The notes below the pieces were generated by a model. That model was not told where the DNA came from. It did no database searches and saw only the letters and a list, made by a program, of their open reading frames with translations. Below are positions 45,599 through 59,969 of a stretch of DNA of 64,000 nt, piece by piece. The translations under genes and the position numbers were made by a program. The DNA is from Flexibacter flexilis DSM 6793 (lineage in GTDB: Bacteria > Bacteroidota > Bacteroidia > Cytophagales > Flexibacteraceae). Each line of letters begins with the position of its first letter. Position 1 is the stretch's first letter. The stretch covers positions 1 through 64,000 of the forward strand of contig NZ_FOLE01000011.1 of NCBI RefSeq assembly GCF_900112255.1, read 5' to 3'.

Positions 45599-48331
45599 TT
45601 ATTTCAACAAATCGAGCCAACCTCTGTACGTGCGTTTGGCGTTGCGTGGGTTGAGTCTGAAAAATTCCACTTCTGCCGAGTAAAAATACGTGCCTGTGGT
45701 GGCTTGGCGTTGGTTGCCTGTGATGTTGCCGTCCCATTGGATTTTTTCGCGGTCGGAGGTCTCATACAATTTTTTGCCCCAACGATTATACACCCTAAAC
45801 GTAATGGATTTGATGTACTGCGGCGTAATGCAAATCGGGCGGAAAGTTTGGTTTTTGTTGTCGTCGTTGGGCGTGAACACGTTCGGAAATTCTAACAAAA
45901 CACAATTGTCTTTACAAACACGATTGCTGCGCACGCTTTCGTTGCCGAACTGGTCTAAGGCCGTTACCTCATAGCAACCCGCCAACGACGTGAGGTTTTG
46001 ATGCGTCCAAGAGGTGTTAGTCGTGGTGGCCAAATACGTTGGATTTTGGTCTTCGGTTGCCGTAAAATAAATGTTATAACGCACTACATCTGTATCGCAA
46101 GGCGCGACTAAATTTGGTTTCCACGTTAATATATTATAGTTGTTGGGTAAAAATGGTGTTTGGCAATCGGTCGGGCAAATCAGCGAGTCGATGGTCAAAA
46201 AGGGTGCACACGGCGCAACCGTATCGCGCGGCATAGCCGAAACTTCGTAAGAATCATTATAAAGTGTTTGGCTAATTTTGGGGTTTTGGTACGCGCCGCG
46301 TGTCTGTATTTTGTAGAAATACGTTTGTGAGGCCTGCAACGGAATGCCCAAATATGTGCCATTGTCTGTATAAGAAACCGTAGTGCTATTGGCCAATACA
46401 CTATCTATTACCTCAAAAACATTATTTACTTGTCTGTAAACCAAGTGATATTTCTCCGTGTTACTCCAAGAAGTATTCGTAGTCCAACTCAAATTTACGC
46501 TAGATACACTACCTGTGGCAGTGAGTTGTATGCTCGCCGCCGCGTCGGAGGTGTCTAACAGTGTTGCACTATTTCCATAATAAAATCCCACTTTATAGCG
46601 GTATTCTTTTTGGCGTGTATCTACTTGGTCTATGAAGGTAGTGTCATCAATGGAATTAGCCTGATGCACTTGCGTGTAATTTGTACCGTTTAGGCCGTCG
46701 GCTCTGAATACGCGGTATTGGTAAGGCGCAGGATAAAGGGTTTTATCAAATTCTAATGGCCGTATCCAGCGCACAAGCATTTGGCCGTTTTGGGCAGTGG
46801 TTTGCACGGAAGCGTTTGTCATTACGGGTACATCAAGTAGGAGAGAGGCACACACTTCGTTTGAGGCGTAGCTTTCGCCACCCGCAGGCGCAGGGAATGC
46901 GGCCACTAATCTGTAACAATACGTTAGGCCGCGTTTGAGGCCAAGCCCTCCATTATTGTCTGTAAAAGAAGTAGTTGTGCTGCTTACTTCTCCTATTTTT
47001 ACAAAACCAGACGAGGCGGGCAAACCAATGTTACAATTGCCTTCCACAAAATCCGAGCTATCTACTTTTCTGTAAATGGCAATGGTAGAAGCATTTGGGC
47101 AAATATAGTTTTGCCAATTAAGAATAATGGATTTGTTGGGTTGTGGCGTGGCACTGGTCAGTTGTGGAGCAGGTGCAACCACCGTAATTCGCCAAATTTC
47201 GGTAGTGGCCAATACAGGCGCGAAAACAGGAATATCTTCTGCTTTAAACGTAACATCGTAAGGCTGTTCGCGCACGTCAGCGCAAGAAGTTGTCCAGCTA
47301 AATTGCGCAAACGATGGATTGCCGATAGGATTGGGAGGCGTAAAAACGGCAGCTTGTTGCGGAGCTACCAACGAATAAACGCCGCCATAAGACGTGATTT
47401 TTACTTTGTCTGCAAGATTGGTATCTAAGCCGATAATGGTTTTGTTCAGGATTGTGCCAGCCGCAATGCAAGTGTCTTTTGGTATAATGAGTTTGGGACG
47501 ATAGTTGCGCGTGTCGCGTACAATTATCTGAATATCACGTACCACATAGCCGATGGCGCGGCCACGTCTCCATTCCGTAATGCGTATGGCCGTGTTAAAA
47601 TAACCGACAAGTTGCGGCGCGTCCCAAGTCAAAACGCCCGTTATAGGGTTGATGGTGTTCGTGGCTGCGGCGGTTTGTGCTTCGTTTTGGCCGCCAGCAC
47701 GCACGGCAGGATTTTGATAATTGTCCACCGTAACGCCTGTTTGGGTGCTTGGATTGTAGTCTTTCATCGAAGGAATATTTTCATAAGAAAGACTATCCCC
47801 GTCGGGGTCGTAGGCGGCAGGTGTATGAAAATATTTTTGTCCGATACCTGCCAAATCAATAGCAGGGTTGGTGAGAACTGGCGTGTTATTGATGCCCAAA
47901 AATGGGTCTATAATAATACGCGTTTCAACATAAAACTGCGTACTGGACGAATTGGCCATATTCTTTACGTCCACATTGCGATTTTCACCGATATAGTAAA
48001 TCAAATAAGAACCTGTGGCGGGATACGTGTGAGTGTATTCATAAATACTCATCCAAGTTCCTTTGCCAAGAATCGGCGTGCGTGGGCCTGTACGTGCTTT
48101 CATTTCTGATGTGCCATCTCCGTAATAAAGGCGATTTTCGGGGTCGTCGATGGGCGAAAGACTATCAGTATAGACAGTGAGTGTCATTTTGTAGGTGAGC
48201 GTGGTGGTAGAGATGCGCTTAACCGTGATTTCACCTGCTCTAATGTGGGTTGCAGCCGCTTTGTGGGAAAAGCTCCCCAACAATAATAATGTAGCAATAA
48301 TGTAAGAATATAATTTTAGTATTTTATACAT
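45599..48331 (-). CDS. T9SS type B cargo with gliding-motility C-terminal domain and FN3-like repeats
   Basis: 910 residues. Signal peptide to about residue 28 (SFSHKAAATH). The mature start HIRAGEITVKRISTTTLTY is a repeating element of CHU_C-type surface proteins. The middle contains several FN3-like units (e.g. LTSATPQPNKSIILNW, GSVSSVNLSWTTNTSW). The last 90 residues are a type B sorting domain: FPNVFTPNDDNKNQTFRP, ITFRVYNRWGKKLYET, WDGNITG and TGTYFYSAEV. Such proteins travel by T9SS to the surface, often aiding adhesion or gliding. It is the longest minus-strand gene here after the 1027-residue protein. Confidence 0.92.
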   Translation of the reverse strand: MYKILKLYSYIIATLLLLGSFSHKAAATHIRAGEITVKRISTTTLTYKMTLTVYTDSLSPIDDPENRLYYGDGTSEMKARTGPRTPILGKGTWMSIYEYTHTYPATGSYLIYYIGENRNVDVKNMANSSSTQFYVETRIIIDPFLGINNTPVLTNPAIDLAGIGQKYFHTPAAYDPDGDSLSYENIPSMKDYNPSTQTGVTVDNYQNPAVRAGGQNEAQTAAATNTINPITGVLTWDAPQLVGYFNTAIRITEWRRGRAIGYVVRDIQIIVRDTRNYRPKLIIPKDTCIAAGTILNKTIIGLDTNLADKVKITSYGGVYSLVAPQQAAVFTPPNPIGNPSFAQFSWTTSCADVREQPYDVTFKAEDIPVFAPVLATTEIWRITVVAPAPQLTSATPQPNKSIILNWQNYICPNASTIAIYRKVDSSDFVEGNCNIGLPASSGFVKIGEVSSTTTSFTDNNGGLGLKRGLTYCYRLVAAFPAPAGGESYASNEVCASLLLDVPVMTNASVQTTAQNGQMLVRWIRPLEFDKTLYPAPYQYRVFRADGLNGTNYTQVHQANSIDDTTFIDQVDTRQKEYRYKVGFYYGNSATLLDTSDAAASIQLTATGSVSSVNLSWTTNTSWSNTEKYHLVYRQVNNVFEVIDSVLANSTTVSYTDNGTYLGIPLQASQTYFYKIQTRGAYQNPKISQTLYNDSYEVSAMPRDTVAPCAPFLTIDSLICPTDCQTPFLPNNYNILTWKPNLVAPCDTDVVRYNIYFTATEDQNPTYLATTTNTSWTHQNLTSLAGCYEVTALDQFGNESVRSNRVCKDNCVLLEFPNVFTPNDDNKNQTFRPICITPQYIKSITFRVYNRWGKKLYETSDREKIQWDGNITGNQRQATTGTYFYSAEVEFFRLNPRNAKRTYRGWLDLLK

Positions 48332-48978: not shown

Positions 48979-49509
48979 ATGAAGATGAAAACTACAATAA
49001 TCAGATTATCGTTTTTTAGTGTAATATATTTGGCCAGTTTTGTTGGCGCGATAGCGCAACAAACCGATTATAAGTATCATTCTATTTTTATTTATAATTT
49101 TACCAAATATTTGCAATGGCCAGCAGCTAACTCTTCTGGTGATTTTGTAATTGGTATAGTTGGCAACTCGCCTATTGTTTCTGAACTGGAGAAAATGGCG
49201 AGTAGTAAGACGGTGGGCAGCCGCAAAATCGTGGTGAAGCGTTTTGCGGGTGCGGACGAAATCGCACCGTGTCAGATGCTTTTTGTACCTCATAACCAAA
49301 ACAGATATTTGGCCGAAATTACAGCAAAGGCGCGTAAGAGTAGTATTTTGGTTATTACCGAGTCGCCAGGTTTAGCGCACAAGGGAAGTAATATAAATTT
49401 CGTGATAAAAGAAAATAAATGGCGTTTTGAGTTGAATAAAAAAGCAACTGATGAGGCGAATATTAAAGTATCACAAGAGTTGTTAAGTCTCTCAATACCA
49501 GTAGAATAA
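48979..49509 (+). CDS. YfiR-like periplasmic protein (DUF4154)
   Basis: 176 residues with a signal peptide ending around GAIAQ (residue 27). The start of the mature part (KYHSIFIYNFTKYLQWP) and FVIGIVGNSPIVSELEKM followed by ILVITESPGLAHKGSNINFV are typical of DUF4154/YfiR. In Pseudomonas YfiR is a periplasmic repressor of the HAMP-containing cyclase YfiN. Here the next plus-strand gene is a HAMP membrane sensor, which repeats the arrangement, but a terminator lies between. An alternative start (MKTTII) lies two codons in. Confidence 0.85.
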   Translation: MKMKTTIIRLSFFSVIYLASFVGAIAQQTDYKYHSIFIYNFTKYLQWPAANSSGDFVIGIVGNSPIVSELEKMASSKTVGSRKIVVKRFAGADEIAPCQMLFVPHNQNRYLAEITAKARKSSILVITESPGLAHKGSNINFVIKENKWRFELNKKATDEANIKVSQELLSLSIPVE

Positions 49510-49703: not shown

Positions 49704-51605
49704 ATGAAATCAGGTATCAGGTATAAAATTTTTATTGGCTTTTTTACGCTTATCGCCATTTTCGTATTTAATGCAGCACTGAGCGTTTACACGCTGCGCG
49801 AGAGTGAGAACATCATTAAGAGAAACTCTGAAATTATTGACCCTTCGTTGGAAGGCATCAAGGAGTTTGAAAAACTAGTGATTCGCTCAAAAATGTACAC
49901 CACTAACTGGGTGTATTTACGTGAAAATGAGGAAGATAAGCAGTCTTTGAAGCAGTTGCATAACGTAGAATATCCTACGCTCAAAGAAAAGATAAAAGCC
50001 TTGATGCCTTATTGGGAAGACCGCCGTCAGACGGTGCGAATGGATTCTATTTTCCAAAAATTCGAAAAACTTTTGATTTTGGAGAAAGAAATCATGCAAA
50101 CGCTTGTATCCTTTGATGATTACGAAGATCCCATTAAAAAATTTACCGCTACAGGAACTATTGAAACCCAATTGATTCCTGCATCGTCAGTTGTATTGAA
50201 GGAGCTTTCGGTGCTATCTGATGCCAAACGTAAAGAAGTTGCTGCTTCTAAAGAGAAATTATTAGATTCTTTTGACGTGTTGCGTTGGATAATTATAGGT
50301 CTAGGTATTGCCCTTTCGGTGATTGGCGTAGTAAGAGCAACCCTTACGGCAAACTCTATTACACGCCCACTCAAATATATACAAGGTATTATCTTGCGTT
50401 TGGGTGTGGGTGAACTGCCAGAAGAAAGCAATCGCACTTTCAATAACGACGAAATCGGCGAAATGGCCAAAGCCGTAGAACAATTGGTGGCGGGCTTGCG
50501 TGCGACTTCTAATTTTGCTGAAAATATTGGTAATGGCAATCTAAAAGCCTCATTTACACCGCTTAGTGACGCAGATGTTTTGGGTAACTCGCTTTTGGAA
50601 ATGCGTTCTAACCTCCAAAAAGTAGCCGAAGACGATAAAAAACGTAACTGGGCTACAGAAGGCGTAGCGAAATTCTCGGAAATTCTGCGCCAAAACAACG
50701 ATAACATCAATAAACTTTCTGATGAAATCGTAGCCAATTTGGTGAAATATCTTGGTGCAAATCAAGGTGGCCTTTATATCGTAAACGAAGACGATACCAA
50801 CGACGAACCATATTTGTATTTGGCGGGCTGCTATGCTTGGGACAAAAAAAAATATATTGACCAAAAAATTGCTTACGGCGAAGGTCTGACAGGGCAATCT
50901 TGGCAAGAAAAAGATACGCTATTCATTACGGACGTTCCGCAAGATTATATTTCTATTACTTCTGGCTTGGGCGATGCTAATCCGACAAGTATCATTATCG
51001 TGCCGCTCAAAATAAATGAGCAAGTGTACGGGGTGGTAGAAATGGCTTCGTTTAATGTTTTCCAAGATTTTGAAATTGAATTTGTGGAAAAAATCGGCGA
51101 AAGCATTGCTTCTACGCTTTCGACGGCCAAAGTAAACGAACGTACAACCCGTTTGCTAGAAGAGTCGCAAATGATGACCGAGCAAATGAAGGCGCAAGAA
51201 GAAGAAATGCGTCAGAACATGGAAGAGCTTCAGGCTACACAAGAAGAAATGGAGCGTGCGCAGTTGAGTATTTCTCGCAAAGAGAAACTATTCGATTCTA
51301 CGATGGTGGTATTGGAGCTTGATAATTCATTTAGCATTACATCTGCCAACGAAATGGCCGATATAATGCTGGGTTATCGTTCGCGCGATCTGACAGGTTC
51401 TGCTCTTAAAGAGTTGATTTCTGACGAAACGTCTTTGTCTCAATTAAAATCCTCCCTTATGCTCGGCCAAGTTTGGCAAGGAACAACAGCTATTCGCAGC
51501 AGCAAAGGTGGTATTGTGAAAGTGAAATTAGTAGCAGGTTCGACTACTGACGAGTTTGAAAGCGAACACAGTTATTTGGTAATTATGCTTCGCTTAGATT
51601 CATAA
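49704..51605 (+). CDS. membrane sensor: four-helix periplasmic domain, HAMP, GAF, coiled coil, PAS
   Basis: 633 residues. TM1 about 9-28, a helical periplasmic domain to about 193, TM2 about 194-213 (IIIGLGIALSVIGVVRATL), then HAMP (SITRPLKYIQG, to about 270), a linker, GAF (about 320-480, with NQGGLYIVNED and VYGVVEMASF), a coiled coil (MTEQMKAQEEEMRQNMEEL) and a PAS-like end. There is no kinase, cyclase, phosphatase or chemotaxis signalling tip. Its GAF and coiled-coil part is shared with the two sensors at 56579 and 58482. It likely signals through the coiled coil to a partner protein not in the window. Confidence 0.85.
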   Translation: MKSGIRYKIFIGFFTLIAIFVFNAALSVYTLRESENIIKRNSEIIDPSLEGIKEFEKLVIRSKMYTTNWVYLRENEEDKQSLKQLHNVEYPTLKEKIKALMPYWEDRRQTVRMDSIFQKFEKLLILEKEIMQTLVSFDDYEDPIKKFTATGTIETQLIPASSVVLKELSVLSDAKRKEVAASKEKLLDSFDVLRWIIIGLGIALSVIGVVRATLTANSITRPLKYIQGIILRLGVGELPEESNRTFNNDEIGEMAKAVEQLVAGLRATSNFAENIGNGNLKASFTPLSDADVLGNSLLEMRSNLQKVAEDDKKRNWATEGVAKFSEILRQNNDNINKLSDEIVANLVKYLGANQGGLYIVNEDDTNDEPYLYLAGCYAWDKKKYIDQKIAYGEGLTGQSWQEKDTLFITDVPQDYISITSGLGDANPTSIIIVPLKINEQVYGVVEMASFNVFQDFEIEFVEKIGESIASTLSTAKVNERTTRLLEESQMMTEQMKAQEEEMRQNMEELQATQEEMERAQLSISRKEKLFDSTMVVLELDNSFSITSANEMADIMLGYRSRDLTGSALKELISDETSLSQLKSSLMLGQVWQGTTAIRSSKGGIVKVKLVAGSTTDEFESEHSYLVIMLRLDS

Positions 51606-51633
51606 TCAAACATTGGAAGCCAATAAATAATAA

Positions 51634-51670
51634 AGCGGGGCGCAAAATCAATTTGATTTTGCGCCCCGCT
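51634..51670. terminator. long terminator between the sensor and dxs genes
   Basis: 18-bp perfect arms (51634-51651 and 51653-51670) with one base between, containing GCGGGGCGC. Convergent genes lie on both sides. Confidence 0.9.
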
Positions 51671-51709
51671 CATATTTTGTATAGATAGCTATAGCTTTTG
51701 ACGTTATTA

Positions 51710-53644
51710 TTACACCGTTGCTTTTACTTTTTGTTTTTTAGCTGAAAGTTCGGCCATTTCGCGCGCGGCTTCGGCGATGCCTTCTGGGTCAAAGCCACAT
51801 TCGCGATGTAGTTCGATTTGCTCGCCATGCTCTACGATGCGGTCAGGAATACCCAAACGTTTGAGGCGTGCATTATAGCCATTGTCAGCCATAAATTCGA
51901 GTACGGCACTACCAAAACCACCTTGTACGCAGCCATCTTCCACCGTAATCACGCTGTCGAACTGCGTAAAGATTTCGTGCAAAAGTGCTTCGTCTAATGG
52001 CTTCACGAAACGCATATCGTAATGCGCTGGATTTAGGCCATCTTTTGCCAAAAGTTCGCAAGCCTGCAGCACATAGTTCCCGATGTGGCCAATGGTCAGA
52101 ATTGCAACTTTTTCGCCGTCTTTTACCTTACGACCTTGCCCGATTTGTAGGGCTTTCATTGGGCGTTTCCAGTCGGGCATTACGCCTTCGCCACGTGGGT
52201 AACGAATCGTAAAAGGCCCCTCGTATTGCGTAGCTGTAAACATCAGGTTGCGCAATTCCTCTTCGTTCATTGGCGAAGCGATAACCATGTTTGGGATACA
52301 ACGCATATACGCCACATCGTAAGCACCGTGATGCGTAGGGCCATCAGCACCCGCAAAACCTGCGCGGTCGAGGCAGAAAATAACTTGCAAATTCTGCAAA
52401 CAAACATCGTGAATTACTTGATCGTAAGCACGTTGCATGAACGAAGAATAAATGTTACAGAACGGAATCATGCCTTGTGTGGCCAAGCCTGCCGAGAAGG
52501 TTACGGCGTGTTGTTCGGCAATACCCACATCAAATGCGCGGTCTGGCATGGCGTTCATCATAATATTAAGCGAACAGCCCGATGGCATGGCAGGCGTTAC
52601 GCCCATGATTTTACTGTTTTGTTCGGCAAGCTCTACGATAGTGTGGCCAAAAACGTCTTGATATTTAGGCGGTTGTGGTTTATCGTAATGCTTTTTGCGA
52701 ATCTCTCCCGTGATTTTATCAAACTTGCCTGGTGCGTGCCATTTGGTTTGGTCTTTTTCTGCCAACGCATAACCTTTTCCTTTTACGGTAAGGCAATGCA
52801 AAATTTTAGGGCCAGGAATGTCTTTCAAATCATTGAGTACATTAACCAAATGATTGATGTCGTGGCCGTCCACAGGACCAAAATAACGCAATTTGAGCGA
52901 CTCGAAAAGGTTACTTTGTTTGAGCAAACTTGCTTTTAGTCCGCTTTCGATTTTGGAGGCAATATCCTGAGCATTAGGGCCAAAACGACTGATTTTACCC
53001 AAAATATTCCAAACTTCATCACGCATTTTGTTGTACGTGTGCGAAGTGGTAATGTCTGTCAAATAGTCTTTGAGTGCGCCTACGTTCGGGTCAATGGACA
53101 TACAGTTGTCATTGAGAATAATAAGCAAATTACTTCCCGAAACGCCCGCGTGATTCATGGCCTCGAAAGCCATGCCGCCCGTCATTGCACCATCACCGAT
53201 TACGGCAATGTGCTGACGTTCTGACTCATTTTTGTATTTGGAAGCTACTGCCATGCCCAAAGCCGCCGAAATAGACGTAGAAGAGTGTCCCACGCCAAAC
53301 GTATCGTAAACGCTTTCTTTGCGCTTAGGAAAGCCCGAAATACCATTGTACAAACGGTTGGTGTGGAATTGGTCGCGGCGACCCGTCAGGATTTTGTGCC
53401 CGTAAGCCTGATGCCCAACGTCCCAAATGAGTTGGTCGTCTGGCGTGTTAAAAACGTAGTGCAGTGCTACTGAAAGTTCTACCACACCCAAACTTGCGCC
53501 GAAGTGCCCGCCATAAACCGACACGTTGTCAATAATGAATTGGCGCAATTCGTCGCTTACTTGCAACAATTGACTTTTATCTAATTGCCTTAAATCCGCT
53601 GGGGAATTGATATTGGCTAATAGTTCTCCTGGTTTGATAAGCAT
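51710..53644 (-). CDS. dxs: 1-deoxy-D-xylulose-5-phosphate synthase
   Basis: 644 residues from the ATG at 53642-53644; the frame begins three codons earlier at a TTG. First enzyme of the non-mevalonate isoprenoid pathway, joining pyruvate and glyceraldehyde-3-phosphate on thiamine diphosphate. Signatures: GGHFGASLGVVELSVALH, WDVGHQAYGHKILTGR, GDGAMTGGMAFEAMNHAG (TPP site), and DRAGFAGADGPTHHG in the central domain. Full length. Alone on its transcript, as far as the sequence shows. Confidence 0.97.
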   Translation of the reverse strand: MLIKPGELLANINSPADLRQLDKSQLLQVSDELRQFIIDNVSVYGGHFGASLGVVELSVALHYVFNTPDDQLIWDVGHQAYGHKILTGRRDQFHTNRLYNGISGFPKRKESVYDTFGVGHSSTSISAALGMAVASKYKNESERQHIAVIGDGAMTGGMAFEAMNHAGVSGSNLLIILNDNCMSIDPNVGALKDYLTDITTSHTYNKMRDEVWNILGKISRFGPNAQDIASKIESGLKASLLKQSNLFESLKLRYFGPVDGHDINHLVNVLNDLKDIPGPKILHCLTVKGKGYALAEKDQTKWHAPGKFDKITGEIRKKHYDKPQPPKYQDVFGHTIVELAEQNSKIMGVTPAMPSGCSLNIMMNAMPDRAFDVGIAEQHAVTFSAGLATQGMIPFCNIYSSFMQRAYDQVIHDVCLQNLQVIFCLDRAGFAGADGPTHHGAYDVAYMRCIPNMVIASPMNEEELRNLMFTATQYEGPFTIRYPRGEGVMPDWKRPMKALQIGQGRKVKDGEKVAILTIGHIGNYVLQACELLAKDGLNPAHYDMRFVKPLDEALLHEIFTQFDSVITVEDGCVQGGFGSAVLEFMADNGYNARLKRLGIPDRIVEHGEQIELHRECGFDPEGIAEAAREMAELSAKKQKVKATV

Positions 53645-53941
53645 ATTAAGCAAATTTTATCAAAGCTCTAACAACTAACACGGGTCAGTTGTTTTGTATA
53701 GTGAAAATGTTTGCAAAGATTGCGGATTTTTTTTGAATTATCACCAAGTATTTTTACAATAACTTAACATACTATCAAGGCTTTGTCCTTAGTGAATAAT
53801 GTATTCGTAGCGAAATTCCGCAAAGAAATGACCTGCTATTTTGCAGTGTTTTTATGGTGCAATCATGCTTGTTAGGATTTGTTGGAAAATAAAGAAGCCT
53901 TTTATCTTAAATAAATTTTAAGTAAAAATTCAGGTATGATA

Positions 53942-53974
53942 TTGATGCTAAAATGCGTTTACTTAATACTTTTG
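53942..53974 (+). promoter_or_regulatory. promoter for dnaG
   Basis: TTG at 53942-53944 and TACTTTTG at 53967-53974 (exact -7 box), 28 bases ahead of the GTG start. The gap 53645-53941 holds nothing else I can identify, apart from an undetermined dxs promoter. Confidence 0.6.
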
Positions 53975-54002
53975 TGCCTTTTTAGTCAAAACAAAACTGT
54001 CC

Positions 54003-55994
54003 GTGAGAATTTCCCAAGAAACAGTAGAACGAATCCAGCAAACCGCCGATATTATCGAGGTGATAGGGGATTTTGTGCCACTGAAAAAGAAGGGAAAAGA
54101 CTATACGGCTTGTTGCCCGTTTCATAACGAAAAAACACCTTCATTTTATGTGTCGCCTGCGAAGGGGATTTATAAATGTTTTGGTTGCGGCAAGGCTGGC
54201 GATACCATTCGCTTTGTGATGGACATCGAAAGCCTGAATTATGGCGAGGCTTTGCGCTATTTGGCCAAAAAATATGGCATCGAAATAGAAGAAGATGCCG
54301 CGCCGCTCAGTGCCGAGCAGCAGCAAGCCCAATCCGAACGCGAAAGCATTTTTATTGCCCTGAATTTTGCCAAAAACTTTTATGCAAATCAGCTTTCGCA
54401 GCATCCCGACGGCCAAGCCTTAGGCCTAACGTATTTGCGCGAACGTGGATTTTTGGACAAAACGATACAGGCTTTTGAACTCGGATACAGTTCGGATACT
54501 TGGGACGGGCTTTTACAAGCGGCTAAAAAACAAGGCTTTACGGCGGATATTTTAGAAAAATCTGGTTTGCTGATTCGCCGCGACGATGGCCGCGAGTACG
54601 ACCGTTTCAGAGGCCGCGTCATGTTCCCGATTCATAACACAAGCGGGAAAGTGATTGGTTTTGGCGCACGGATTTTGGGTTCGGACAAAAATCAACCCAA
54701 ATATATCAACTCGCCCGAAACGGAAGTTTACAATAAAAGCGAAGTGTTATTTGGTTTGTTTCAGGCCAAAAACGCGATTCGTCAGGCCGATAATTGCTAT
54801 TTGGCCGAAGGTTATACCGATGTTATTTCGTTGCATCAGGCGGGCGTGGCCAATGTGGTGGCCTCGTCGGGTACGTCGCTGACTGCCGAGCAAATCCAAC
54901 TTATCAAACGATACACGCACAATGTTACGGTGCTTTATGACGGCGATTGGGCAGGTATCAAAGCCTCGTTGCGCGGTATTGATATGCTTTTGGAGGCTGG
55001 CCTGAATGTACGCGCCATTACGTTCCCCGACGGCGACGACCCCGACAGTTATTTGCGCAAAGTGGGAGGTTCGGCGTTTACGGCTTATTTGCAGACTGCG
55101 GCCAAAGATTTTATTTCCTTCAAAGCCAGTTTGTTTGCGGAAGATGCCGCCCGCGACCCCATTCGCAAAGCTGAAATTATACGCGATATTGTGCAGAGTA
55201 TCAGCCTGATACCCGACCTTATCAACCGTTCGGTTTTCTTGAAACAATGCAGCCAGTTGCTGGGCGTAGAAGAAGAAATTTTGTTGGCGGAAAGCAATAA
55301 AATTATTCTTAAAAAACAGCAACAACAAAACCCCACGCATCGCCCAGCGGTGCAAGCAGGTACGCAAATTCCTGCCCCGCAGCCATCGCCAGAAATGCTG
55401 GACGAACAGGCATTTTTGGCCGAAACACAGCTTACTCCTGATGGCGTGAGCCGCGACAAAATAGGGGAGAGCATTCGCCTACAAGAGCGCGAAACCATGC
55501 GTTTTTTGTTGCAATATGCCGCCGCCGCTGTCTCGGAAGAATACAAATTGGGACAGTATGCCCTTGCGCAGTTGGAAGACATTGTGTTTGTTACGCCACT
55601 ATACAGCCGCATGATCGGGATTTTTAGGGAAGAAATGGCCAAAAACCATTTGCCCGACTACCAATTTTTTGTACGCTACTCGGACGAGGAAATACGACAA
55701 GAGGCCGCCTCTCTGATTGCCGAACGCCACGAACTTAGCGAAAGTTGGTTCAGTATGCACCACCTTTATACTGAGCACGAAAAAGACAATTTGGCATATA
55801 ACGCTTACAAACAAATTCTAAGACTTAAAGCAATGGTAGTCAAGAAATTAGTAAACGAAAAAATGCAACAAATTATACAGGCCGAACAGCAACAAGCCAC
55901 CGCCGAAACCGTCGAAAAATTATTGATGGAATACCAAGTGCTGCACAAGTTGGGAGCGGATATTAACAAAGAATTAGGCACAGTGATTAAGTAA
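54003..55994 (+). CDS. dnaG: DNA primase
   Basis: 663 residues, starting at GTG (54003). Makes RNA primers for replication. N-terminal zinc-binding CPFH...CFGCG (Cys38, His41, Cys59, Cys62), RNA polymerase-like core with YLAEGYTDVISLHQ (Toprim Glu) and VLYDGDWAGIKA (DGD, Toprim Asp pair), and a C-terminal helicase-contact region from about 450 with a Gln/Pro-rich linker. All metal-binding positions are present. No rpoD or rpsU neighbours, so the macromolecular synthesis operon arrangement is not kept. Confidence 0.96.
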   Translation: MRISQETVERIQQTADIIEVIGDFVPLKKKGKDYTACCPFHNEKTPSFYVSPAKGIYKCFGCGKAGDTIRFVMDIESLNYGEALRYLAKKYGIEIEEDAAPLSAEQQQAQSERESIFIALNFAKNFYANQLSQHPDGQALGLTYLRERGFLDKTIQAFELGYSSDTWDGLLQAAKKQGFTADILEKSGLLIRRDDGREYDRFRGRVMFPIHNTSGKVIGFGARILGSDKNQPKYINSPETEVYNKSEVLFGLFQAKNAIRQADNCYLAEGYTDVISLHQAGVANVVASSGTSLTAEQIQLIKRYTHNVTVLYDGDWAGIKASLRGIDMLLEAGLNVRAITFPDGDDPDSYLRKVGGSAFTAYLQTAAKDFISFKASLFAEDAARDPIRKAEIIRDIVQSISLIPDLINRSVFLKQCSQLLGVEEEILLAESNKIILKKQQQQNPTHRPAVQAGTQIPAPQPSPEMLDEQAFLAETQLTPDGVSRDKIGESIRLQERETMRFLLQYAAAAVSEEYKLGQYALAQLEDIVFVTPLYSRMIGIFREEMAKNHLPDYQFFVRYSDEEIRQEAASLIAERHELSESWFSMHHLYTEHEKDNLAYNAYKQILRLKAMVVKKLVNEKMQQIIQAEQQQATAETVEKLLMEYQVLHKLGADINKELGTVIK

Positions 55995-56091
55995 TAAAAA
56001 AAGTCTTTTAAGCTCTATTTTTTGTTTGTTTTTTGTGGTAATTTGGCTGCTATAATATTATATCACCAAACTAATTTAATACTGAAAAATT

Positions 56092-56490
56092 ATGGCAACA
56101 CACGCAACTCCGTTTGTGGTTTTTGAATTCAAACCAGAACAAAATGCAGTACACGCTACTTGGAAAGATACAACTGCAATGGCCACAGAAGACCAAATAA
56201 AAGAGAGTATGTTGGAATATGTAAAATTCATAGATACTTATCGTGCTCCCAATCTTCTTGTAAACGAAAAGGACATGAAATTTGAGTTTTCGCCATCGTT
56301 TCAGGCTTGGATGGACGAAAATGTTTCGGAAAAAGCCCGCAATATGGGTTCGGTTCGTTTTGCGTTTATTAAAAGTGAAGATTTTATTATTGGCTTGGCC
56401 GCTGAAATGGTCATGGAGCAAGTAGCTTCTAATGCGCCTGTTCGCTTTTTTGATAATGCCCAAGAGGCAGAAGCGTGGTTAATTTCTTAA
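56092..56490 (+). CDS. hypothetical cytoplasmic protein, STAS/SpoIIAA-like size
   Basis: 132 residues with alternating strands and helices (ATPFVVFEFKPEQNAVHATWK, then KESMLEYVKFIDTY, then NLLVNEKDMKFEF, ending DNAQEAEAWLIS). Length and pattern recall STAS/SpoIIAA-like proteins, such as the STAS-like DUF3478 group, that start with a beta-strand against a substrate-like acid; the ending NAQEAEAWL matches their usual finish. No enzyme motif. It lies ahead of a 22-bp terminator and is convergent with the sensor gene at 56579. A role linked to those sensors is possible but only by position. Confidence 0.6.
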   Translation: MATHATPFVVFEFKPEQNAVHATWKDTTAMATEDQIKESMLEYVKFIDTYRAPNLLVNEKDMKFEFSPSFQAWMDENVSEKARNMGSVRFAFIKSEDFIIGLAAEMVMEQVASNAPVRFFDNAQEAEAWLIS

Positions 56491-56511
56491 AAAAATGATC
56501 GATCTATAAGA

Positions 56512-56557
56512 AACACAAAGAAGTCCGAAAACTTTAGTTTTCGGACTTCTTTGTGTT
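56512..56557. terminator. 22-bp perfect terminator hairpin
   Basis: Bases 56512-56533 and 56536-56557 pair perfectly around TT, with core GAAGTCCG / CGGACTTC. It lies between convergent genes. Confidence 0.9.
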
Positions 56558-56578
56558 GGGTAAGTAATTGATTTTTAG

Positions 56579-58168
56579 TTAATGAGGCTGTGTTTGCAAC
56601 GCTGTGATTTGTTGAGCTTGGGCTTCTATTTTGGCTAATAAATCCTGTTCTTTTTTCTTGAATTGCGTAACGGCTTGCTGCATGATTTGATTGCGGCGTT
56701 CGATTTGTTCTTGGGTACGCGCTTTTTCTGTGGCTCGTACCTCTTCAATTTCTTTTTTTGCAGCCTGCAACTGCTCAATCATGGCTTCCATAGCGGCTTC
56801 TTTGGCTTGCATGATTTCGTTTTGGCGTTCGATTTCGCGTTGTTTGCGCTCCATTTCTTCTTGTGTAGCGGCGAGTTCCTCCATATTTTGGCGCATTTCT
56901 TCTTCCGCCGAACGCATTTCTTCTGCCTGTATTTGCGAAGTTTCTAGCAATTGTAACGTTTGTTTGTTGGTGCGATAGGCCTTGATATAACTGGCCAATG
57001 CCTCGCCACCTTTTTCCATAAATTCGATTTGGGCGGCAGTTAGCTCTTTAAAAGAGGCTACCTCTATAATACCTTCTACTTCTCGGTTATAAATGAGTGG
57101 TACGATAGCCAAAAACGATGGCGTAGCATCGCCCAGACCCGAAGTGATGCGCACGTAATCTTGTGGAAGTTTCTTGAGGCGTGTCGTTGTTTTTTCTAAA
57201 TAACATTGCCCCACTAACCCTTGCCCTATTTCTATGCGTTGTTGCTCGGCGTGTTTTTTGCGGTCGTAAGCGTACACAGCTTTTAGGGAAATATAAGGCT
57301 TGGTGCTATTTTTATCATCAAAGGCGATTTCATAAAAAGCACCTTGATTTGCATTTAAATATTTGATAATGAAAGACAAAATCTTGTCATTCATACTGCT
57401 GCCGTTCTCTTCTTCACGTGTCAGGGCCGTGAGTTGGGCCACGCCGTTGCTTACCCACGTGCGCGACTGTTCGTCTTCGCGGGCTTTCTGTACTTCGGAC
57501 AAAGTATTTTTGAGTGTTGCTTCCGACTCTTCCATTTGCGTTTGCTTTTCGGCCAACGAATTAACCAACATCATATTATTTTCTTCTGACGCAATCACAA
57601 AATTTTGTTGTAAAATCAGTGCCGACACAATCGCTAAAATACCCGTAGCCGTGCACATAAGCGTGTATTCGGTACTAAATACAAACTTTAAATCAATGCC
57701 TTCTGTGTTATTAAAAAGTGGTTCATAAACTTTAAAGGTAAATAGCGCAATACTAATTGCTATCACTCCAGCAATTTGAATTGTCCTCTCGCGGTGGTCA
57801 AACAAGGCAAACGTAAAGGCTAAAAAGGCAAATGCCATTCCCCAAAGCCCATAAGGGGGAGCTGTTTCGTGTTGCGAAAAATAAGCTCCAGAAATCATGA
57901 CAACTGAAAAAGGGGTAAAAACCACGGCCATTCTGGCGGCAATATGTTGACCAATGTGGTTGAGCACTGGAGCTAATACAAACGCAGCTGTTGCTAAGCC
58001 AATGAGCCAGAGCAACGGATACATGAATAAGTAAATAACTACAGTAAAGGCGATACAAACAGGAATGAAAATGAGTGCTATCGTATTGGATAGGCCAATT
58101 TTGGCATTGAGCCAATCAGGGTTTTTGTCCGAAATGCCTGCGTTTTTGATGAGATGTACGATGTTCAT
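56579..58168 (-). CDS. multi-TM GAF coiled-coil sensor without output domain, copy 1
   Basis: 529 residues from the ATG at 58166-58168, which aligns with the start of its paralogue at 59969; the frame is open to 58261. About six TM helices (to residue 190), a coiled coil (EKQTQMEESEATLKNTLSEV), GAF (about 235-390, with NANQGAFYEIAFDD and DYVRITSGLGDATPSFLAIV), then a long coiled coil (EEMRSAEEEMRQNMEELAAT) running to the C-terminus. No kinase, GGDEF or methyl-accepting domain. The C-terminal helix probably docks a partner. It is about 60% identical by eye to the gene at 58482. Confidence 0.82.
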   Translation of the reverse strand: MNIVHLIKNAGISDKNPDWLNAKIGLSNTIALIFIPVCIAFTVVIYLFMYPLLWLIGLATAAFVLAPVLNHIGQHIAARMAVVFTPFSVVMISGAYFSQHETAPPYGLWGMAFAFLAFTFALFDHRERTIQIAGVIAISIALFTFKVYEPLFNNTEGIDLKFVFSTEYTLMCTATGILAIVSALILQQNFVIASEENNMMLVNSLAEKQTQMEESEATLKNTLSEVQKAREDEQSRTWVSNGVAQLTALTREEENGSSMNDKILSFIIKYLNANQGAFYEIAFDDKNSTKPYISLKAVYAYDRKKHAEQQRIEIGQGLVGQCYLEKTTTRLKKLPQDYVRITSGLGDATPSFLAIVPLIYNREVEGIIEVASFKELTAAQIEFMEKGGEALASYIKAYRTNKQTLQLLETSQIQAEEMRSAEEEMRQNMEELAATQEEMERKQREIERQNEIMQAKEAAMEAMIEQLQAAKKEIEEVRATEKARTQEQIERRNQIMQQAVTQFKKKEQDLLAKIEAQAQQITALQTQPH

Positions 58169-58409
58169 GGCTAAATGAAATGTGTTTGGTTTGAAGTGAA
58201 ATAAAGTTACTAGTAATACAATAGTAAATGTTAAATATTCGGCTAGTGCTATTGATTGCACGGCGAAATTTATGTTTATTTCGGTTAAATAAATTTATTG
58301 TGTTTTCTATTTTTTCTTCTAATACTCAATATAAAAAAATATTTTAAATGAAATATTGATAAAAATCAAGTGTTCGGCTAATAAGTGAAGCGATAGCACC
58401 ACGACAAAA

Positions 58410-58442
58410 AAATAGGTTTTGGCCAACGACCAAAACCTATTT
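58410..58442 (-). terminator. terminator of the copy 2 sensor gene
   Basis: AAATAGGTTTTGG / CCAAAACCTATTT (58410-58422, 58430-58442), seven-base loop, 40 bases past the stop at 58482. Confidence 0.85.
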
Positions 58443-58481
58443 GCTCTCCATACATCTCTCTCTACTCTAATTCAAACATTT

Positions 58482-59969
58482 TCAGGCGACTGCCTGGCTC
58501 ATAAGTTCTGCATTTAATTCCACCGACGACATCGGTTTGGCGATTTGTCGTAGAATTGCAATTTCTTTTTTGGCGGCTTCCAATTCTCTGAGTGTAAGTG
58601 AAAGCTCGCGACTTTTTTCTTCCAAAAGCATTTCTTGGTGTTCCATGCTGCGTTGCTTGCGTTCCATTTCTTCCTGAATGGCCGAAAGCTCTTCCATGTT
58701 TTGGCGCATTTCTTCTTCTGCCGAGCGCATTTCTTCGGTTTGTTGTTGCGAAATCACCAACAGACGGCGCGTTTGCTCATTGGTGCGTGAAGATTTGATG
58801 AAGCTGGCCAAACTCTCGCCCGCTTTCTCTAAAAATTCTATTTGCGCTTTGCTCAACTCCTCAAACGAGGCCACTTCGATAATTCCTTCTACTTCTCGGT
58901 TGTAAATCAGTGGCACAATTGCCAAGAAAGCTGGTGTCGCCTCGCCCAAACCCGACGTAATTCGTACATAGTTTTGCGGAATTTGTTTGAGGCGAGTAGT
59001 TTCCTTTTCCATATAACATTGTCCAACCAAACCTTGTTTCGGCTCTATGCGTTGGTTTTCAAAATGTTTTTTGCGGTCGTAAGCGTACACAGCTTTCAGG
59101 GCAATGTAGGGCTTGGTTTGCTTTTCGTCGTCAAATTCTACTCTATAAAAACCGCCCTGATTGGCATTTAAGTATTTGATAATGAAAGACAAAATACGGT
59201 CGTCAAGATTTTCGCTTTGTTCCTCGCGCGTCATGGCCGTTACTTGCGCCACACCGTTGGCTACCCACGTACGGGCTTGTTCGTCTTCGCGTGCTTGTTG
59301 CACTTCGGCCAACGTGTTTTTTAGTGTCGCTTCAGACTCTTCCATCAAGGTTTGTTTTTCGGAAAGCGAAGCCAACAAATCAGCATTCTCTTTCTCTGAT
59401 TTTAGCACATAATTTTGTTGCATAAACAAAGAAGCTGCAATAATGATAAGTGCCGTGCTGGTACACAACAGTTTGAATGGCCAACTGTCGGCAAACTCAT
59501 AATCAATTCCGTTATTCACATCAAAGAGTGGTTCGTATAGGCCAAAGCATATCATGGCCAAACCCATTAAGATAGAATTAATGGCTAATATTTTGCGTTC
59601 GCGGTGGTCGAATACCGCAAAATTGAAAGCGAAGAAGGCCAGAGCCATTGCCCAAAAACCATTCAAAGGTTTTATAAATGAGTTGGCGTAGTAGGCATTG
59701 AAAATACTAATCACCGTGAAAGGCACTAAAACCAAAATACTACGCGATAGAAGATGGTTTCCCCAGTAGTTAAGCAGCGGCGTAGCGGCGAAAGCTAACG
59801 TAGCCAATACAGGCAAATAAAGAAGCGGCGTAAAGTAAAAGTGAATAATCACAGAGAATGTTACTGCCAAGAAAATTAACAATCCCGCCAATTTGTTCGA
59901 CTGCTCTATTTTGGTGTTCAGCCAAGCAGGATTTTCTTTATTAATGCCTAAGCTTACGATGCGTTTCAT
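58482..59969 (-). CDS. multi-TM GAF coiled-coil sensor without output domain, copy 2
   Basis: 495 residues. Same plan as copy 1: N-terminus MKRIVSLGINKENPAWLN, six TM helices to about 190, coiled coil with EKQTLMEESEATLKNTLAEV, GAF (about 235-385) with NANQGGFYRVEFDD and NYVRITSGLGEATPAFLAIV, coiled coil EEMRSAEEEMRQNMEELSAI to the end. The C-terminal tail differs from copy 1 (AAKKEIAILRQIAKPMSSV). Both have separate terminators, so they are expressed as separate units and may answer different signals. Confidence 0.82.
   Translation of the reverse strand: MKRIVSLGINKENPAWLNTKIEQSNKLAGLLIFLAVTFSVIIHFYFTPLLYLPVLATLAFAATPLLNYWGNHLLSRSILVLVPFTVISIFNAYYANSFIKPLNGFWAMALAFFAFNFAVFDHRERKILAINSILMGLAMICFGLYEPLFDVNNGIDYEFADSWPFKLLCTSTALIIIAASLFMQQNYVLKSEKENADLLASLSEKQTLMEESEATLKNTLAEVQQAREDEQARTWVANGVAQVTAMTREEQSENLDDRILSFIIKYLNANQGGFYRVEFDDEKQTKPYIALKAVYAYDRKKHFENQRIEPKQGLVGQCYMEKETTRLKQIPQNYVRITSGLGEATPAFLAIVPLIYNREVEGIIEVASFEELSKAQIEFLEKAGESLASFIKSSRTNEQTRRLLVISQQQTEEMRSAEEEMRQNMEELSAIQEEMERKQRSMEHQEMLLEEKSRELSLTLRELEAAKKEIAILRQIAKPMSSVELNAELMSQAVA

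Follow-up and report, generated by a model that had tools for sequence, protein, structure and literature searches.

Genes A, B and C, as we name three sensor genes in a 64,000-nucleotide stretch of the genome of Flexibacter flexilis DSM 6793 (contig NZ_FOLE01000011.1, positions 1 to 64,000; hereafter the window), encode proteins in which a GAF domain is joined to a glutamate-rich coil and no output domain can be recognised. We refer to the GAF domain plus the coil as the cassette, and to a cassette protein with an output as a hub. The reading that we prefer, to which we give somewhat less than an even chance, assigns A, B and C to a many-receptors-one-hub system, of which they may be enzyme-less receptor subunits. 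The hub would be the product of an operon located elsewhere in the genome, in which CheR and CheB genes accompany a cassette gene with a SpoIIE phosphatase domain. The evidence comes from the structure of this operon, from the co-occurrence of cassette and CheB genes in related bacteria, and from the pattern of conservation within the coil.

Genes A, B and C and the cassette family

The three genes and their parts are located as follows:

49704-51605, plus strand: gene A, output-less sensor, an open reading frame (ORF) of 633 amino acids (aa); from Pfam, an AlphaFold2 model and relatives
50703-51119, plus strand: GAF domain of A; GAF_2 profile, 60.9 bits in the genome scan
51066-51302, plus strand: long helix of A (residues 455-533) with the coil motif, whose core DNA is 51201-51229; AlphaFold2
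51303-51602, plus strand: C-terminal PAS domain of A; sub-threshold Pfam matches, AlphaFold2 model and fold search
56579-58261, minus strand: gene B, 560 aa; N-terminal multi-helix membrane domain, GAF and coil, the end being one long helix
57011-57388, minus strand: GAF domain of B; GAF_2 profile, coil motif at 56874-56902
58482-59969, minus strand: gene C, 495 aa, a paralogue of B (59% identity)
58797-59207, minus strand: GAF domain of C; GAF_2 profile, coil motif at 58687-58715

All three GAF domains exceeded the cut-off of the Pfam GAF_2 profile (A 56.9, B 37.3 and C 43.8 bits), and PDE2A and a protein named GAF were among the PDB profile matches of this domain. The parts of A are arranged in the order N-terminal helical part, HAMP (28.6 bits, Pfam), second HAMP-like linker (recognised by eye), GAF, glutamate-rich coil and PAS. 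An earlier interpretation made from the letters of the window (the sequence-only reading) missed the PAS domain that follows the coil of A, for which both Pfam matches (PAS_9 21.1 and PAS 20.7 bits) were below their cut-offs. The AlphaFold2 model of A (mean predicted local distance difference test score, pLDDT, 81; predicted template modelling score 0.40; 22 sequences) has a PAS-like fold at residues 535-630, which the single helix 455-533 connects with the GAF domain, and a fold search against the PDB returned the PAS domain of NifL at the top, followed by other PAS/LOV domains and full-length bacteriophytochromes.

B and C lie in tandem on the minus strand and are 59% identical over nearly their full length, while A has a HAMP domain and a helical N-terminus; there are therefore two types of membrane input and not three, and the differing inputs described earlier separate A from the other two genes but not B from C. 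The C-terminus of B was modelled as one continuous helix (residues 409-556; AlphaFold2, mean pLDDT 74.5, 7 sequences), of low confidence past approximately residue 490 (mean pLDDT per ten residues 47-67).

Pfam (E ≤ 0.1) gave no match of A, B or C to a kinase, cyclase, GGDEF/EAL, phosphatase or MCPsignal domain; in NCBIfam, B and C were without any match and A had sub-cut-off matches only. A catalytic domain hidden in the C-terminal helices was considered and rejected, as Pfam, NCBIfam, the AlphaFold2 models of A and B and the fold search of A yielded only PAS domains, GAF-containing proteins and plain helix. A match of A to CheZ (Pfam 20.5 of 30.7 bits; NCBIfam 16.6 of 257) falls on the coil and was taken as coiled-coil bias.

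Scanning of the 4.25-Mb genome (99.8% complete) revealed 25 GAF_2 places, 16 of which have this GAF domain together with the coil (mean column identity of the alignment 53%), and a further relative, L081, has the GAF domain without the coil. The trio is real and belongs to a genome-wide set of 16. Fifteen of these proteins have no output domain (Pfam); the 16th, L079 on contig C12, is a hub with the layout dCache-HAMP-GAF-coil-PAS-PAS-SpoIIE. Of the nine SpoIIE places in the genome, a single one falls within a cassette ORF; the 39 HATPase_c places all lie outside the 16 cassette ORFs.

The best 80 of 448 results of a scan of species genomes for relatives gave 79 loci, which we take, by their names, to be from Bacteroidota, bar one in a metagenome bin labelled Thalassobius. 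Among 226 cassette-matching ORFs in the loci, a biased sample, 190 were labelled by BLAST as without output, 23 as SpoIIE and 13 as kinase; the 190 include 26 of fewer than 300 aa (mostly transmembrane (TM)-GAF proteins or fragments) and one truncated hub copy. We scanned 121 output-less relatives with Pfam, drawn from two sets of BLAST-negative ORFs: 44 of 45 (the truncated hub copy was left out) and 77 of 94 (the 17 longest were left out). At the order level, frames of approximately 1100-1190 aa resembling hubs were avoided. GAF was present in all of them, and PAS, HAMP, Cache, CHASE3 and 4HB_MCP in many; no output domain was present among the families listed, and single weak matches (MEKHLA, FapA, UvrD_C, BEX etc.) were taken as chance. 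Neither HisKA/HATPase_c nor the MCPsignal hairpin (PF00015) was matched in the output-less proteins of F. flexilis, A, B and C included, or in the 121 relatives (Pfam). The absence of a known output, claimed at first for three genes, thus extends to twelve further output-less proteins in F. flexilis and to these relatives.

The cassette was present in 21 of the 39 genomes of the order (F. flexilis included), with at least one to at least 34 copies among the matches listed; its occurrence extends to Bacteroidales and further families of the class. Output-less sensors are numerous in the group, the relative with at least 34 cassette matches having its hub and TM-GAF protein counted in.

In a tree of 111 cassettes, the bootstrap of which had not settled, the output-less proteins except the divergent L080 formed one group with weak to moderate support (91/82); the 13 kinase hubs formed one clade (100/96), as did 21 of the 23 SpoIIE hubs together with one truncated hub copy (100/99). 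It is highly improbable that A, B and C are remnants of sensor kinases that lost their function through decay or truncation: their lack of an output domain would fit decay, but the frames are long and open, GAF and coil are conserved, the 121 relatives scanned have no output domain either, and the weakly supported grouping in the tree is that of one output-less radiation and not of scattered losses.

The CheR-CheB-hub operon

The single hub gene of F. flexilis lies in an operon with the order CheR, CheB, a 287-aa TM-GAF protein, the hub (GAF-coil-PAS-SpoIIE), a SiaB-family kinase and a SiaC-family protein. The assignments rest on profile matches: CheR, PF01739 (146 bits); CheB, PF01339 (162 bits), without a receiver domain; the SpoIIE domain of the hub, PF07228 (74 bits, cut-off 25); SiaB_fam_kinase, NF038262 (182 bits, cut-off 85); and SiaC, PF09345 (137.6 bits, cut-off 24.5). 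The narrower equivalog models were not reached (SiaB 87.1 of 225 bits, SiaC 83.7 of 150 bits). CheB and CheR have kept, as judged by eye, motifs that we take to be those of their catalytic sites. As far as domain content can tell, the operon is a partner switch of the SiaABC type, with a predicted SpoIIE phosphatase, SiaB-family kinase and SiaC-family phosphoprotein.

There was no match to CheW (PF01584) in the genome; no search aimed at CheA was made, and a CheA should show too, since in relatives the CheW model also matches long, CheA-sized frames. The genome has two CheB places, the second of which (L232:8646-9665) adjoins a receiver-domain protein, with no CheR or cassette in the 19-kb stretch.

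When the neighbours of 95 cassette genes were clustered, the same CheR and the same CheB were found in seven loci each. One CheB place was taken from each of 15 order-level relatives with at least four cassettes, picked for a short CheB and/or a nearby cassette, and 12 of these 15 lie within the whole operon; the others are in G034 (contig end) and in G011 and G027 (CheR-CheB-TM-GAF, hub not adjoining). With F. flexilis included, the whole operon is present in 13 of the 17 order-level genomes that have at least four cassettes.

We labelled 26 loci, among them loci from the clustering of neighbours; 12 of the 26 had been picked by eye from CheB matches (short CheB or near cassette) and four were SpoIIE-type class loci added for that type, 12 kinase-type loci being counted apart. 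CheR, CheB and cassette-SpoIIE were found together in 23 of the 26 (22 distinct, the cassettes of the L117 and L297 hubs being identical); as the loci had been selected for CheB or cassette, this count should not be read as a rate. An output-less cassette gene is the immediate same-strand neighbour of CheR in ten distinct loci (L117/L297, L144, L150, L152, L159, L161, L238, L295, L296 and L298); in L239 such a gene lies inside the cluster, and in L236 and L247 one is nearby on the other strand. In L246, CheB and SiaB were located by tblastn, as they are overlapped by antisense ORFs.

A second type of hub was found in other families of the class. Among 16 class loci (L288-L303; 15 chosen for a cassette near CheB, and L303 for its 1,901-aa protein), four have a SpoIIE hub, and in the other 12 the cassette forms one protein with a hybrid histidine kinase. 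This kinase hub has CheR and CheB beside it, or one gene off, in 11 of the 12 (the exception is L303); L289, for instance, is a CHASE3-GAF-HisKA-HATPase-REC protein beside CheR/CheB.

CheB and the cassette tend to co-occur. Among the 39 genomes of the order, CheB was present in 16 of 17 with at least four cassettes versus 5 of 18 with none, the genomes with one or two cassettes (G004, lacking CheB, and G019, G024 and G037, having it) being left out of the count; among CheW-negative genomes the figures were 8 of 9 versus 3 of 16. In the class (295 genomes), CheB was found in 65 of 78 cassette-positive versus 32 of 217 cassette-negative genomes; at most ten candidates per genome were scored, and copy numbers in this survey are lower bounds. 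Among the matches listed, a cassette lies within 6 kb of a CheB in at least 40 genomes, a count that left out the listed TM-GAF-type matches and a few others. Both CheB and SiaC were present in all 16 genomes that have a close cassette (E < 1e-80), versus 47 of the 279 others. SiaC alone was rejected as the partner: it occurs in 173 of the 295 genomes, so that its co-occurrence in 16 of 16 says little by itself.

The coil and the proposed receptor-hub coupling

The motif of the coil reads QEEEMRQNMEELQATQEEMER in A, AEEEMRQNMEELAATQEEMER in B and AEEEMRQNMEELSAIQEEMER in C. Searched in back-translated form with up to two mismatches, it was found at 19 sites in the genome and its reversed control at none, and it is therefore not due to chance; all 19 sites fall within 12 cassette ORFs. 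Together with the ORFs and the GAF_2 matches above cut-off, this confirmed the common signature of the three genes. In long members the motif also occurs after PAS domains: the 1329-aa L071 protein (L071:8179-12165, minus strand) has five coil copies at an exact spacing of 170 residues, each followed by a PAS, which is an internal duplication of the coil-PAS unit.

Conservation of the coil was determined from 59 output-less rows (15 from F. flexilis and 44 from relatives that had not been found by the motif pattern; the truncated hub copy L268 was left out). The 79 loci of the relatives' scan were kept out, because the pattern used in that scan required EE[ML]RQ[NA]xEE. The mean bits per heptad position were b 3.94, f 3.44, c 3.43, d 3.20, g 3.17, a 3.02 and e 2.39 (n = 59), so that the outward positions b, f and c are more conserved than the core positions d and a. 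In the coils of hubs the core position d leads (d 3.52 and b 2.58 in 23 SpoIIE hubs; d 3.35 and b 2.87 in the 12 aligned of 13 kinase hubs). The pattern in the output-less proteins argues for recognition of these predicted outward faces by another molecule, without saying which.

Positions b and c are those methylated in chemoreceptors. In three consecutive heptads these two positions are occupied by Glu or Gln in 93-100% of the 59 output-less rows. Since pairs of glutamates (EE pairs) also occur in GAF-kinase hubs and in ordinary coils, we did not accept them on their own as a methylation signature. The earlier statement that methyl-accepting parts are absent is accurate in the Pfam sense, there being no MCPsignal domain, but the coil itself may accept methyl groups.

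The main alternative, which we consider rather unlikely, is that the coil does no more than link domains, as a conserved signalling helix, in proteins that were duplicated and have each their own kinase or other partner, with CheR and CheB acting on the SpoIIE or kinase hub alone. Such a role is consistent with the motif following PAS as well as GAF, with the similar EE-rich coil of GAF-kinase hubs, and with the presence of a hybrid kinase within a few kilobases of some cassette genes (L077, L072), but it sits poorly with the outward-facing conservation in the output-less set. It also leaves out of account that in F. flexilis all 19 motif sites, and none of the 39 HATPase_c places, are in cassette ORFs, and that output-less genes in other genomes are part of the CheR/CheB/SpoIIE operon.

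A dedicated cytoplasmic partner of another kind, unrelated to this operon, appears less probable still. In its favour, several faces of the stretch of approximately 20 residues are conserved, and subfamilies have neighbours of their own: for type A this is a YfiR-like gene, which in 20 of 95 cassette neighbourhoods immediately precedes the cassette gene on its strand, and SpoIIAA-like genes accompany others. However, the neighbours seen at three or more loci that we took by eye for signalling proteins were YfiR-like proteins, cassette paralogues, CheR, CheB, TM-GAF and SpoIIAA-like proteins and, at three loci each, a sensor-like protein and a LuxR-type response regulator, and no other reader of the helix stood out among them. 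For the common partner that the sequence-only reading had postulated, operon structure and co-occurrence thus offer a concrete, if unproven, candidate: the cassette-SpoIIE hub with its CheR and CheB.

In the receptor-hub system that we favour, the input of A would come from its helical N-terminal part and a YfiR-like partner, and that of B and C from their multi-helix membrane domain. Each input would be coupled through the GAF domain to the common glutamate-rich coil, the interface by which the 15 output-less receptors would act on the single dCache-HAMP-GAF-coil-PAS-PAS-SpoIIE hub, control presumably passing from receptors to hub. The operon's orphan CheR and CheB, a methyltransferase and a methylesterase, would perhaps also have the coil as their substrate and thereby set the sensitivity of the receptors, as in chemotaxis. 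The hub phosphatase would in turn dephosphorylate SiaC against the SiaB kinase, forming a partner switch; SiaC is the presumed target by analogy with P. aeruginosa (Pseudomonas aeruginosa) SiaABC.

Taken as a whole, this would be a chemotaxis-like scheme without CheW or the hairpins of methyl-accepting chemotaxis proteins (MCPs), in which many GAF-coil receptors are interchangeable, CheR and CheB adapt them by methylating the short EEE-RQN-EE-ATQEE helix and one SpoIIE phosphatase drives the SiaB/SiaC partner switch; the Bacteroidota concerned would need no chemotaxis system for this. We put this complete scheme forward tentatively and think it distinctly more doubtful than the assignment of A, B and C as receptor subunits. 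If the coil is a CheR/CheB substrate coupled to one phosphatase hub, orphan CheR/CheB pairs of CheW-less bacteria would gain a role, the sensory adaptation of a partner switch, and many output-less sensor proteins would gain a directly testable pathway.

Several observations weigh against receptor-hub coupling and coil methylation. In F. flexilis a long distance separates the operon from A, B and C, and neither there nor in L233, L234, L235, L237, L242, L243, L245 and L246 does an output-less gene adjoin the operon. The operon loci were selected for containing CheB or a cassette. CheB is missing from 13 of the 78 cassette-positive class genomes and from G025, which has 6 cassettes, and in G011 and G027 no hub stands beside CheR-CheB-TM-GAF. 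The Fisher values for the co-occurrence (2e-3 to 7e-28) come from tests that are not independent, and they overstate significance since the genomes are related; moreover, neither binding nor methylation is demonstrated by gene neighbourhood or co-occurrence. The coil has no similarity to MCPsignal, EE pairs at a spacing of 7 residues are common in coiled coils (the kinase hubs studied here included), and the motif follows PAS domains within long proteins (five times in L071), as a plain linker would. Finally, for the cfc cluster of Pseudomonas putida, described below, an unpublished remark of the authors in the excerpted text states that mutants in other cfc genes kept the phenotype tested (PMC4951495).

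Known systems and neighbouring genes

According to the excerpted parts of two papers, the P. putida cluster cfcABCDE encodes the multisensor CHASE3/GAF hybrid kinase CfcA (PMC6849547) and a CheB/CheR pair, CfcB/CfcC, for which a role in chemotaxis was ruled out (PMC4951495). The likeness lies in a GAF sensor clustered with CheB and CheR outside chemotaxis, and L289 has the layout of CfcA; in contrast, the output of the F. flexilis hub is a SpoIIE phosphatase with SiaB/SiaC, and the hub has 15 output-less paralogues. These parts of the two papers (PMC4951495, PMC6849547) contain no description of an output-less receptor family. Orphan CheR/CheB beside GAF sensors are thus known already, and what is unusual here is the combination of an output-less receptor family with a phosphatase hub. 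The suggestion of a signalling scheme novel to this lineage was therefore only partly right, given the cfc precedent, as far as it is described there (PMC4951495), and the cassettes of Bacteroidales and other families.

In P. aeruginosa SiaABC, the excerpted account has a phosphatase and a kinase balance the phosphorylation of SiaC (PMC7647112). The operon resembles this system in its genes for a PP2C/SpoIIE phosphatase, a SiaB-family kinase and a SiaC-family phosphoprotein (PMC7647112, same excerpt), and differs from it in the GAF-coil-PAS-PAS input of the hub, the CheR/CheB genes in the operon and the Sia equivalog models that were not reached. Among the papers and excerpts searched on CheR/CheB with SpoIIE, Sia proteins, hybrid kinases and GAF, none described this arrangement in Bacteroidota, and literature searches gave no match for the coil motif string, nor for DUF4154 in Bacteroidetes.

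Two further systems may be compared. Like MCPs, the relatives have Cache, 4HB_MCP, CHASE3 and HAMP inputs and a long helix with EE pairs at 7-residue intervals, with CheR/CheB present; unlike MCPs, cassette proteins lack the MCPsignal hairpin, and the genome lacks a CheW match. The YfiR-like gene directly before A recalls YfiR-YfiN, but A has no GGDEF domain and the upstream gene is nearer to the TOL_0243 YfiR-like model than to YfiR.

Two small genes adjoin A and B:

48979-49509, plus strand: YfiR-like periplasmic protein (DUF4154), directly upstream of A; Pfam and neighbourhood comparison
56092-56490, plus strand: SpoIIAA-like (STAS-type, PF11964) small protein, convergent with B; Pfam 23.9 bits, cut-off 25

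The YfiR-like protein scored 32.4 of 85 bits with the YfiR equivalog and 121.3 of 125 bits with the TOL_0243 model. It is one of ten such proteins in the genome, of whose genes one precedes a cassette gene and one a hybrid kinase (L087). At the YfiR-like loci L074 and L082-L088, several of the genes adjoin large proteins that look secreted or outer-membrane-like, as judged by eye.

BLAST relatives of the SpoIIAA-like protein are encoded directly downstream of cassette genes at L158:9353-9763 and L170:9743-10123, and another sub-threshold PF11964 protein lies beside a cassette gene at L129:9347-9751. Only the L158 protein passed the PF11964 cut-off; the L170 protein has no Pfam match and is related to the window protein by BLAST.

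An MsrA-type pattern gene was seen in 12 of the 79 cassette loci (L095, L097, L099, L100, L103, L104, L107, L110, L122, L141, L143 and L169), that of L103 being confirmed as a peptide methionine sulfoxide reductase (PF01625), and an MsrB-type pattern in L094, L100, L101 and L108, that of L100 being confirmed as SelR. Judging from these Msr genes, type A may have a redox or envelope-stress input.

The first half of the ORF at L069:13065-13910 (plus strand) is made up of approximately eight near-perfect 14-residue repeats (SLQV.DCSRQ..DC) and may be repetitive DNA and not a protein. In the window, positions 45599-48331 (minus strand) encode a secreted-looking protein of 910 aa, the C-terminal region of which resembles, by eye, a Bacteroidota sorting domain.

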